From Onishia taeanensis (GTDB taxonomy: Bacteria; Pseudomonadota; Gammaproteobacteria; Pseudomonadales; Halomonadaceae), in NCBI RefSeq assembly GCF_900100755.1, contig NZ_FNCI01000001.1, forward strand, positions 186,001 to 250,000: a DNA stretch of 64,000 bases, written 5' to 3'. Of the stretch, positions 5,618 to 9,109 are shown piece by piece. The notes under the pieces were generated by a model that was not told the DNA's origin, searched no databases, and worked only from the letters and a program-made list of their open reading frames with translations. The translations under genes and the position numbers were made by a program. Numbering within the stretch: the stretch's first letter is position 1; the number at the start of each line of letters is the position of its first letter.

Positions 5618-5794
5618 CGCGCACTGGAGAGTGCCGTAGAAAGGGGCGGGGGGCTCCCTGCGGCTTCCATGCGCTCCGGGGTCATGTAAGAATTGATGGT
5701 TCACTGGACACCGAGCGCCCGGCAACGACCGTGGCGCCAGGACGACGAAAACGACGTCTCGACACACGAGATGCGCAAGAAGACAGAGGACCGC

Positions 5795-7639
5795 ATGCCC
5801 GAATATCGCTCACGTACCACCACTGCCGGCCGCAATATGGCGGGCGCCCGAGCCCTGTGGCGCGCCACCGGCATGAAGGACGACGACTTCCACAAGCCGA
5901 TAATCGCCGTCGCCAACTCCTTTACCCAGTTCGTGCCGGGCCATGTGCACCTCAAGGACATGGGGCAGCTGGTGGCTCGCGAGATCGAGAAGGCCGGGGG
6001 TGTGGCCAAGGAATTCAATACCATCGCGGTGGATGACGGCATCGCCATGGGCCACGACGGCATGCTCTATTCATTGCCGAGCCGCGACATCATCGCGGAT
6101 AGCGTCGAGTACATGGTCAACGCCCACTGTGCCGATGCCCTGGTGTGTATCTCCAACTGCGACAAGATCACGCCGGGAATGTTGATGGCCGCCATGCGCC
6201 TCAACGTGCCGGTGATCTTCGTCTCCGGTGGCCCCATGGAGGCCGGCAAGACGAAGCTTCTGGATCACGGCCTGGATCTCGTCGATGCGATGGTCATGGC
6301 CGCCGATGACAGCGTTGACGACGAGACCTTAAGCGAGGTCGAGCGCAGCGCCTGCCCGACCTGTGGCAGCTGCTCGGGCATGTTTACCGCCAACTCCATG
6401 AACTGTCTGACCGAAGCACTTGGCCTGGCGCTGCCCGGCAACGGCACGGTTCTGGCCACCCACGCCGACCGCCGCCGCCTGTTCGAGACTGCGGGCCACC
6501 GCATCGTCGAGCTGGCCAAGCGCTACTACGAGGGTGACGAGGCGCATCTGTTGCCGCGCGCCATCGGTGCCAAGGCCGCGTTCAAGAACGCCATGACCCT
6601 GGATATCGCCATGGGCGGCTCTACTAACACCATCTTGCATCTGCTGGCGGCAGCGCAGGAAGCCGAGATCGATTTCACCATGGACGATATCGACCGGCTG
6701 TCCCGAGAAGTGCCGCAGCTGTGTAAGGTGGCGCCCAACACCCAGAAGTACCATATCGAGGACGTGCACCGGGCCGGCGGCATCATGGCGATTCTCGGTG
6801 AGCTGGACCGGGCCGGGGTGCTCGATACCCGTGTGCCGACCGTCTACGGCGACAGCCTGGCCGAAGCCCTCGAGGAATGGGACATCATGCGCGCCCCGAG
6901 CCCGGAGGTCGTGGAGTTCTTCCGCGCCGGCCCCGGCGGTATTCCCACTCAGACCGCGTTTTCGCAGAGTGCCCGCTGGCCGAGCCTGGATGGCGATCGC
7001 GCCACTGGCTGCATTCGCGATCTCGCCCATGCCTTCTCGACCCAGGGCGGGCTTGCGGTCCTCAAGGGCAACATCGCCGTCGATGGTTGCGTGGTCAAGA
7101 CCGCCGGCGTCGATGATTCGATCCTGGTCTTCGAGGGCCGCGCCCATGTGGTCGAGTCCCAGGATCAGGCGGTCGAACACATCCTTGCCGACAAGGTCAG
7201 CGAGGGTGATGTGGTGGTGATTCGCTACGAGGGACCCAAGGGTGGGCCGGGCATGCAGGAAATGCTCTATCCGACCTCGTATCTGAAATCCAAGGGGCTG
7301 GGCAAGGCCTGTGCGCTGCTGACCGACGGGCGCTTCTCCGGCGGGACCTCGGGCCTCTCCATCGGTCACGTCTCCCCTGAGGCGGCGGCCGGTGGCGCCA
7401 TCGGTTTGGTCGAGCAGGGCGACCCGATCCGCATCGATATCCCCAATCGCCGCATCGATGTGCTGCTGGATGATGCCACTCTGGCATCGCGTCGCGAGGC
7501 CATGGAGGCGCGCGGTAAGCAGGCCTGGAAGCCGGCCATCGAGCGGGTGCGTAAGGTCTCGGCGGCGCTCAAGGCCTATGCGCTGCTGGCCACGTCAGCC
7601 GACAAGGGGGCGGTGCGCGACCTCGACAAGCTCGACTGA
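5795..7639 (+). CDS. ilvD: Dihydroxy-acid dehydratase
   Basis: Iron-sulfur enzyme that dehydrates 2,3-dihydroxy-isovalerate and its methyl homologue to the 2-oxo acids of valine and isoleucine synthesis. The 614-residue length matches E. coli IlvD (616). Cluster cysteines are in [12 protein letters not shown] and [11 protein letters not shown], and the family motifs [10 protein letters not shown] and [15 protein letters not shown] are present. The ATG at 5795 is chosen because it follows AGAGGA at the right distance and gives the family N-terminus [19 protein letters not shown]. An upstream in-frame ATG at 5771 would add eight residues not typical of the family. Confidence 0.96.
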
Positions 7640-7662
7640 GACCCTCGCCATTCCTGAATGAT

Positions 7663-7690
7663 AAGGCCCGCGCCGGAAGACGCGGGCCTT
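7663..7690. terminator. Hairpin between ilvD and the small minus-strand gene
   Basis: Perfect 10-bp stem AAGGCCCGCG / CGCGGGCCTT with an 8-nt loop, 23 bp after the ilvD stop. It is symmetric and lies between convergent reading frames, so it could serve both strands. There is no T-run on either side, which lowers confidence in intrinsic termination. Confidence 0.5.
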
Positions 7691-7733
7691 AATGAAATTC
7701 GCCCTATGCTGGGGTTCACCGCCGGACTGTCGT

Positions 7734-7841
7734 TTACGCCGCCTCGGCAATCTTCTCTTCCGTTTCCGGTGGCGCATACTGCTCAGATTCCAGTTCAAAC
7801 CACAGCACAAGCAGTGAAAGACTTTCCTCGCTATAGCACAT
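7734..7841 (-). CDS. Probable small acidic protein, 35 residues, function unknown
   Basis: A short frame in the 400-bp gap between ilvD and the next gene. It starts with ATG (7839-7841 read on the minus strand), preceded by GAGGGAGGCGAGTTTG, a very strong Shine-Dalgarno at good spacing, and ends at TAA. The product begins MCYSEESLSLLVLWFELES and ends PPETEEKIAEAA. It has a short hydrophobic patch (LSLLVLWF) followed by an acidic, probably helical tail. It converges on ilvD with a shared hairpin (7663-7690). The ribosome binding site and protein-like composition support it. Homologues would be needed for certainty, and I do not recognise the family. Confidence 0.5.
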   Translation of the reverse strand: MCYSEESLSLLVLWFELESEQYAPPETEEKIAEAA

Positions 7842-8041
7842 CAAACTCGCCTCCCTCGATCATGGAACACCACGATGGTGGATAAGAACCGCCACTCTTC
7901 AGTATGGTTGACTCGACCAAGGTCGATATGACGTTTCTCTGACCGTTTGATGATATGCATGGGCGCGATGGCTCTATACAGTCGCGACCTCTTCAGGCCC
8001 ATAAGGGCGCTTATCTTCCCGACATACTCCAAGGATTCTCG

Positions 8042-9109
8042 ATGAAGCAGAAGTTTGCGGTCGGCGTGGTGGGCTTCGGCTTTGCCAGTCAGACCTTTCA
8101 CGTGCCATTGATCCAGGCCACGCCCAATCTCGAACTGGTGGCGATTTCCTCGAGTGACGCTGACAAGGTGCACGCAAGCCTGCCCGAGATGGACGTGGAG
8201 GCGAAGCCTCAGGCGCTGTTTTCGCGCGCTGACATCGATCTGGTGGTGATTCCGACCCCCAATCAAAGCCACTTTCCGCTAGCCAAGGCAGCACTCGCCG
8301 CCGGCAAGCATGTGGTCGTCGACAAGCCATTCACGGTGACGCTGTCCGAGGCGAAGGCGTTGCGTGGCTTGGCTGACGAGAGCGGTCGGCTGCTGTCGGT
8401 ATTTCATAACCGCCGCTGGGATAGCGACTATCTGACCCTGAAGGCGCTGCTGGAATCTGGCGACCTGGGCCGCCTGGTATCACTCGAATCACGCTTCGAC
8501 CGCTTTCGTCCCGAAGTGCGCGATCGTTGGCGGGAGCAGGCCCAGCCCGGCGGTGGTATTTGGTATGACCTAGGACCGCACCTATTGGACCAGGCGCTGG
8601 AGCTGTTTGGCATGCCGCGGCGCATCCTGCTCGACCTGGCGGTGAGCCGTGACGGTGCTCAGACCGATGATGATTTCGTGGCCCTGCTCGACTATGAGGA
8701 GCGCCGCGTGACGCTCAAGGCCAGTGCCTTGATCGCCGAGCCGACGCCGCGCTTCGCCGCCCACGGAACCCAGGGCAGCTACCTCAAGTATGGGCTCGAC
8801 CCACAGGAAGATCGCCTCAAGGCCGGCGAAACGCCTGGGCCAGCGTGGGGCGTCGATACCAACCACGGCACGCTGCGCACATGGGATCAAGCATCGCAGG
8901 CACTGGTGGCCCAGGAGCATCCGACGCAGCCCGGTGACTATCTGGCCTATTATCAGGGCATCGCTGATGCGCTGGCGGGCCAGGCGGAGAACCCTGTTGA
9001 TGCCGGCTCGGCCATCAAGGTGATGATGCTGCTGGAAGCGGGCCTCGACAGCTATCGCCAGCAGCGCTGGGTCAAATTGCGCGAGGGCACTGGCATGCGT
9101 CAGCGCTAG
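8042..9109 (+). CDS. ydgJ: Gfo/Idh/MocA-family NAD(P)-dependent oxidoreductase, YdgJ type
   Basis: The 355-residue product has an N-terminal Rossmann fold starting VGVVGFGFASQTFHVP, the cofactor-loop motif VVDKPFTVTLSEA (DKP is the family's EKP-like motif), and a C-terminal substrate domain. It resembles E. coli YdgJ along its whole length, including FHNRRWDSD, FDRFRPEVRDRWREQ and YDLGPHLLDQA. The substrate, probably a sugar or polyol derivative, is not known from sequence. Start: ATG 8042 follows AAGGA. A longer frame from 7955 would add 29 unrelated residues. It stands alone, facing nudE. Confidence 0.88.
   Translation: MKQKFAVGVVGFGFASQTFHVPLIQATPNLELVAISSSDADKVHASLPEMDVEAKPQALFSRADIDLVVIPTPNQSHFPLAKAALAAGKHVVVDKPFTVTLSEAKALRGLADESGRLLSVFHNRRWDSDYLTLKALLESGDLGRLVSLESRFDRFRPEVRDRWREQAQPGGGIWYDLGPHLLDQALELFGMPRRILLDLAVSRDGAQTDDDFVALLDYEERRVTLKASALIAEPTPRFAAHGTQGSYLKYGLDPQEDRLKAGETPGPAWGVDTNHGTLRTWDQASQALVAQEHPTQPGDYLAYYQGIADALAGQAENPVDAGSAIKVMMLLEAGLDSYRQQRWVKLREGTGMRQR

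Follow-up and report, generated by a model that had tools for sequence, protein, structure and literature searches.

The window, meaning the whole stretch of 64,000 nucleotides analysed here, leaves 402 bases (positions 7640-8041) between ilvD and a gene for an oxidoreductase, and the locus raises the question of whether this gap holds a gene and, if so, what its product might do. An initial annotation, made from the letters of the sequence, had put the gap at about 400 bp and placed in it an overlooked minus-strand frame of 35 codons, opening with ATG and provided with a ribosome binding site. The frame is present: translation of the minus strand from 7841 to 7734 gives MCYSEESLSLLVLWFELESEQYAPPETEEKIAEAA followed by a TAA stop, with the Shine-Dalgarno-like site GAGGGAGGCGAG four bases ahead of the ATG. 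The product was also described correctly as a mini-protein that is hydrophobic in its first part and acidic after it, and has a net charge of -8. The features of the locus are as follows.

Positions 5693..7639, plus strand: ilvD, dihydroxy-acid dehydratase, the convergent neighbour; a long open frame whose match to NCBIfam NF009103 (1172 bits) begins at residue 35.
Positions 7663..7690 (7663-7672 with 7681-7690), no strand assigned: GC-rich inverted repeat between the stops of the small gene and ilvD, a candidate shared terminator.
Positions 7734..7841, minus strand: the 35-codon gene, its frame kept in 39 of 275 family genomes under purifying selection.
Positions 7846..7857, minus strand: Shine-Dalgarno-like site, with counterparts in relatives.
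Positions 7901..7926, minus strand: promoter-like element TCGACCTTGGTCGAGTCAACCATACT, with a candidate -10, CATACT, at 7901-7906.
Positions 8042..9109, plus strand: Gfo/Idh/MocA-type oxidoreductase (NCBIfam NF008607, PRK11579), the divergent neighbour.

A frame of this kind could be spurious, lying within a conserved non-coding spacer. The frame is short, and within the window, GGAGG or GAGGG, a comparable ribosome site, also precedes five ATG frames of 30-60 codons; because a frame plus a ribosome site is not in itself beyond chance, the gene call rests on conservation. Coding sequences from relatives, 69 rows merged to 35 distinct sequences with one copy carrying an internal stop (G065) left out, all begin with ATG-TGY (Met-Cys), and all 35 are preceded by a Shine-Dalgarno-like word (GGAG, GAGG, AGGA or GGGA). 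Cys2, Ser7, one Trp, one Glu and a terminal Ala-Ala are each found in 35 of 35, and the codons of these invariant residues vary synonymously where possible. The script that collected the sequences required the Ala-Ala end, and profile hits and a search that did not require it end in the same way. Lengths are 35, 36, 38 and 43 codons, with the changes consisting of whole codons in the linker, plus two codons in the helix of the g2 sequences. Substitutions lean synonymous in all six genera, as the initial annotation had proposed to check, with pooled pN/pS values of 0.42, 0.10, 0.32, 0.32, 0.19 and 0.26. When substitutions were reshuffled, as few amino-acid changes were reached in at most 5% of reshuffles for 10 of 17 pairs, the other seven not being individually significant, and the 17 pairs overlap and are not independent.

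The spacer, furthermore, is mostly shortened in genera that do not have the small gene, to about 45 to 190 bases at gene-free loci in the five genera examined where ilvD adjoins the oxidoreductase gene. A spurious frame is contradicted by the synonymous bias, by length changes that keep the frame, and by a start and an Ala-Ala end that are fixed in 35 of 35; we rejected this reading, which has next to no chance of being correct. Start, ribosome site and frame, whose lack of conservation would have spoken against an overlooked gene, are thus all conserved in relatives, and the minus-strand frame from 7841 to 7734 is, with hardly any room for doubt, a conserved protein-coding gene.

The same annotation had called the gene unreported-looking, a description that holds for the sets compared: no relative of the small protein was found in Pfam, NCBIfam or the sequences of solved structures. 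Literature searches of an open-licence library returned no paper on small proteins or short open reading frames of Halomonas, and none of the ten papers listed by a wider search there names Halomonas. The locus holds a real, conserved and apparently unnamed micro-protein gene. It has much in common with the unannotated bacterial small proteins of fewer than 50 residues that have been found by conservation or ribosome profiling, namely a short conserved frame, a good ribosome site, a missed or unnamed status and a single helix, the last of these predicted here. It differs from them in constituting a new family that has no relative in Pfam, NCBIfam or solved structures, is restricted to one lineage and is accompanied by a near-private promoter-like element.

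Of 275 genomes from the family, 39 contain the small protein according to profile searches; they belong to 6 of 24 genera and have one copy each. Profile A1 gave 39 full-length matches at E-values of 6.2e-6 or better, all others being at 0.07 or worse, and profile A3, built from 25 representatives, recovered the same 39 genomes at 4.7e-10 or better together with two weak matches at 0.005 and 0.045. An initial search of 58 relatives had already shown that six of the seven genomes in the genus of the window have the gene, as do other genera. The oxidoreductase was used to fetch 80 loci, which include 21 named carriers: Onishia niordana, Litchfieldella anticariensis, Litchfieldella qijiaojingensis, Franzmannia pantelleriensis, six Modicisalibacter species, two Chromohalobacter species and nine strains filed as Halomonas. 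(Carrier rows L170 and L171 were empty, and L161 was skipped, in one comparison.) Outside the family, no convincing homologue was found in the sampled sets of the order (390 genomes) and class (274 genomes), where the class-level set yielded one match at 0.014, in a 19-codon frame. Searches of phage records with the window peptide (tblastn), of plasmid records with a typed consensus (tblastn) and of viral contigs with an IUPAC pattern of the first eight codons each returned zero matches.

Within the family the gene has been lost more than once. In G001 (L054), a congener of the window, the small gene is deleted and the upstream region is still there; in H. salinarum (L071) it is missing at the same place, again with the upstream region retained. 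The G065 copy (L051, Chromohalobacter group) has an in-frame TGA inside the helix and is probably decaying. Since one congener has lost the gene and one genome has an internal stop in it, the gene is dispensable. On a tree of the oxidoreductase, carriers are scattered, with five most-parsimonious changes, at least 3 of them forced by well-supported branches; the tree holds 39 hand-chosen rows (36 of the 80 named loci, L145, the window and one g9 genome), and several of its forks are weakly supported. This scatter fits an old gene that was repeatedly lost, and recent horizontal acquisition was rejected. Separately, the oxidoreductase match of L059 (G014) contains one in-frame TAA.

The oxidoreductase gene is the constant neighbour: all 39 carriers have it next to the small gene in divergent orientation. 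The tie to ilvD that had been proposed is real in the window, where the two genes converge, but looser than suggested, since 23 of the 39 carriers have a convergent ilvD no more than 500 bases away and 25 have ilvD in the locus. A hairpin had also been said to be shared with ilvD. An inverted repeat does lie between the two stops, and in 30 of 39 carriers the first 140 bases past the small-gene stop can form a short-looped stem of 8 or more pairs, which ends in a T-run in L052 and L053, but a terminator scan of window positions 7600-8100 scored none, the T-run at the inverted repeat being weak. In Chromohalobacter canadensis (L131, 113-2328) the small gene does not face ilvD and instead lies about 160 bases upstream of a co-directional aconitase-like gene. 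Given this pairing with an aconitase-like neighbour, a function linked to ilvD as such was rejected.

These arrangements also bear on whether the frame might be a cis-acting leader peptide, or part of a dual-function RNA, whose translation regulates a neighbouring gene. A Leu-rich frame near ilvD invites such a reading, as does the same-strand aconitase-like gene downstream in Chromohalobacter. In the window, however, ilvD is convergent and the oxidoreductase gene divergent, so that neither lies co-directionally, and a convergent ilvD means that no sense-direction transcript is shared with it. Conservation is furthermore at the level of the protein, with synonymous changes that include codons 2-8, which is not what an attenuator needs. 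An Rfam search of positions 7500-8100 gave two chance matches, the better at 19.2 bits against a gathering score of 55. A leader peptide or dual-function RNA is accordingly highly improbable.

An element upstream of the gene suggests that it may have its own promoter. Alignments of upstream regions gave the consensus TCGACCTTSGTC..A.....CCATACT, which occurs with up to 1 mismatch in 22 of 121 family genomes, one copy each, and in 21 of the 22 lies just upstream of the small gene. The remaining copy (G198) falls within an unrelated coding frame with no such gene nearby and is attributed to chance, and a control in which the element was read backward had 0 matches in the 121 genomes. The small gene itself is present in 37 of these 121, and the element was not found at 1 mismatch in 16 carriers (10 g2, 2 g9 and 4 g19). 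The window's genome has no second copy better than a 3-mismatch match. CATACT would be suitable as a -10 and would leave a leader of about 40-65 bases; a scan of positions 7600-8100 for the sigma-70 consensus found 0 promoters.

Further upstream, 47-50 bases before the CATACT -10, 18 of the 27 distinct sequences outside g2 have a dyad TGAY-N4-RTCA, versus 0.4% in shuffles, and this dyad presumably resembles an FNR/CRP-type site. Such a site would fit a micro-protein in which Cys2, Cys3 and the Cys of an 'EC' pair bind metal or sense redox state, and among the 35 sequences Cys2 is invariant, residue 3 is Cys in 28 and the 'EC' Cys is present in 25. But no Cys other than Cys2 is invariant, the protein encoded in the window contains just one, and none of the six carriers in the window's genus has the dyad. 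We consider a metal or redox role very unlikely.

With regard to the product itself, AlphaFold predicts one helix (residues 5-22) and a loose tail, with block-mean pLDDT values of 89-93 for residues 1-20 and of 54-63 for the tail. Net charge ranges from -5 to -11 across the distinct coding sequences, with no positive patch, and from this we infer that a protein would be a likelier partner than DNA, RNA or membrane. The linker varies while its Ala-Ala end stays fixed, which makes that end a candidate degron. ClpXP recognises a C-terminus of this type in the ssrA tag, but proteins ending in Ala-Ala are common. Loss of the gene in several lineages points to a conditional, non-essential role.

The reading that we put forward, and that could equally well prove right or wrong, is of an independently transcribed, acidic, partner-binding micro-protein of 35-43 residues with a single docking helix, a possible ClpXP-type degron and a conditional role. 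Transcription would start at the candidate -10 CATACT, some 50-60 bases ahead of the ATG, and end at the GC-rich stem-loop, and the product would be a single amphipathic helix spanning residues 5-22. A conserved face made up of Ser7, Leu8, Trp14, the aromatic residue 15 and Glu18 would dock on one protein partner and modulate it, and the variable acidic linker with its invariant Ala-Ala C-terminus could act as a ClpXP-type degron, making the protein short-lived. The best concrete candidate for the partner is an enzyme whose usual ligand is acyl carrier protein helix II, the part of AcpP that is recognised by most enzymes (PMC9386255).

This candidate arises from a resemblance that also admits a more specific reading, in which the helix imitates acyl carrier protein helix II and is either phosphopantetheinylated on Ser7 or a decoy for phosphopantetheinyl transferase or a fatty-acid enzyme. 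In the order-level set just three out-of-family matches reached E-values up to 0.05 (2.6e-5, 3.5e-4 and 0.037, per genome; 390 genomes), and all are carrier proteins; two of them were mapped and lie next to an aminotransferase-like gene, as does the AcpR carrier of serine palmitoyltransferase (PMC9386255). However, the 19-codon frame of the class-level set and an unrelated 217-codon frame score almost like the weakest of them. The alignment to helix II is free of gaps, and the invariant Ser7 falls on the phosphopantetheine serine of the DS(V/R) motif. Comparison by hhalign gave a probability of 82.7% to a mixed carrier alignment and of 92.4% to the three matched carriers, the latter with none of 150 permutations of the columns reaching that value, a result that is biased because those three were chosen for their scores. 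Fatty-acid acyl carrier proteins alone, in contrast, gave 1.7% (3 of 150 permutations as high) and peptidyl carriers 0.26% (37 of 150). For AcpP of the window's genome the scoring register is the same and the rank is 9th among 3,009 windows of equal length, but 15 of 300 permutations that keep the helix period reach its score. The register is therefore found, at about 0.003 to 0.05 in unbiased controls, and is only suggestive.

Set beside known carriers, the small protein shows both likenesses and differences. Like helix II of AcpP and of AcpR (PMC9386255), its helix starts from a Ser after an acidic residue, followed by Leu and an acidic-hydrophobic pattern, and its W-Y is a likeness to AcpR-like carriers. 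Unlike acyl carrier proteins, it has no helices I, III and IV, the AlphaFold model giving one helix in 35 residues and not the four-helix carrier fold. Residue 6, which is Asp in carriers, is Glu in 31, Asp in 3 and Ala in 1 of the 35 sequences. Carrier models are also unmatched, with 0 of 25 members matching PF00550 at E-values up to 10 and none matching the NCBIfam carrier models at 10, and a search of solved structures for the small protein found no carrier, the best hits being unrelated. As a separate observation, loci L153, L154 and L155, from other families of the order, encode AcpR-like carriers whose helix II contains an unusual W-Y-D, and in L153 and L154 the carrier adjoins an aminotransferase-like gene.

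Short peptides of this type can be modified, since PMC4245215 describes eight- to twelve-residue tags of the helix II kind that are phosphopantetheinylated, including the AcpS tags A1 (GDSLDMLEWSLM) and A4 (DSLDMLEW). Relatives of the small protein contain ESLDML or DSLDML, and two g6 proteins share DSLDML with A1 and A4. Tags A1, A4 and S6 resemble the small protein in having a short DSLDML-type helix but are laboratory peptides, and the small protein would be a putative substrate. The window genome has one PF00550 match and one PF01648 match, and the latter places a phosphopantetheinyl transferase in it. The transferase is found in 24 of 24 genomes tested, small-gene carriers or not, and so provides no co-occurrence signal with the small gene. 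On balance, imitation of helix II is unlikely, and we regard as distinctly unlikely its fullest form, a natural stand-alone helix II mimic of 35 residues that would be modified by, or would block, phosphopantetheinyl transferase or another carrier partner and so tune lipid synthesis in halophilic bacteria.

With the gene described here, genomes of several genera of salt-loving bacteria, in which genes of such size go unnamed, gain a well-supported family of very small proteins whose ends are fixed and whose promoter-like element is almost exclusive to them. If imitation of helix II were true, the small protein would be a natural counterpart of the laboratory tags A1 and S6, and if the resemblance is functional, the family would provide a natural micro-protein whose targets are the loading enzymes of acyl carrier proteins.
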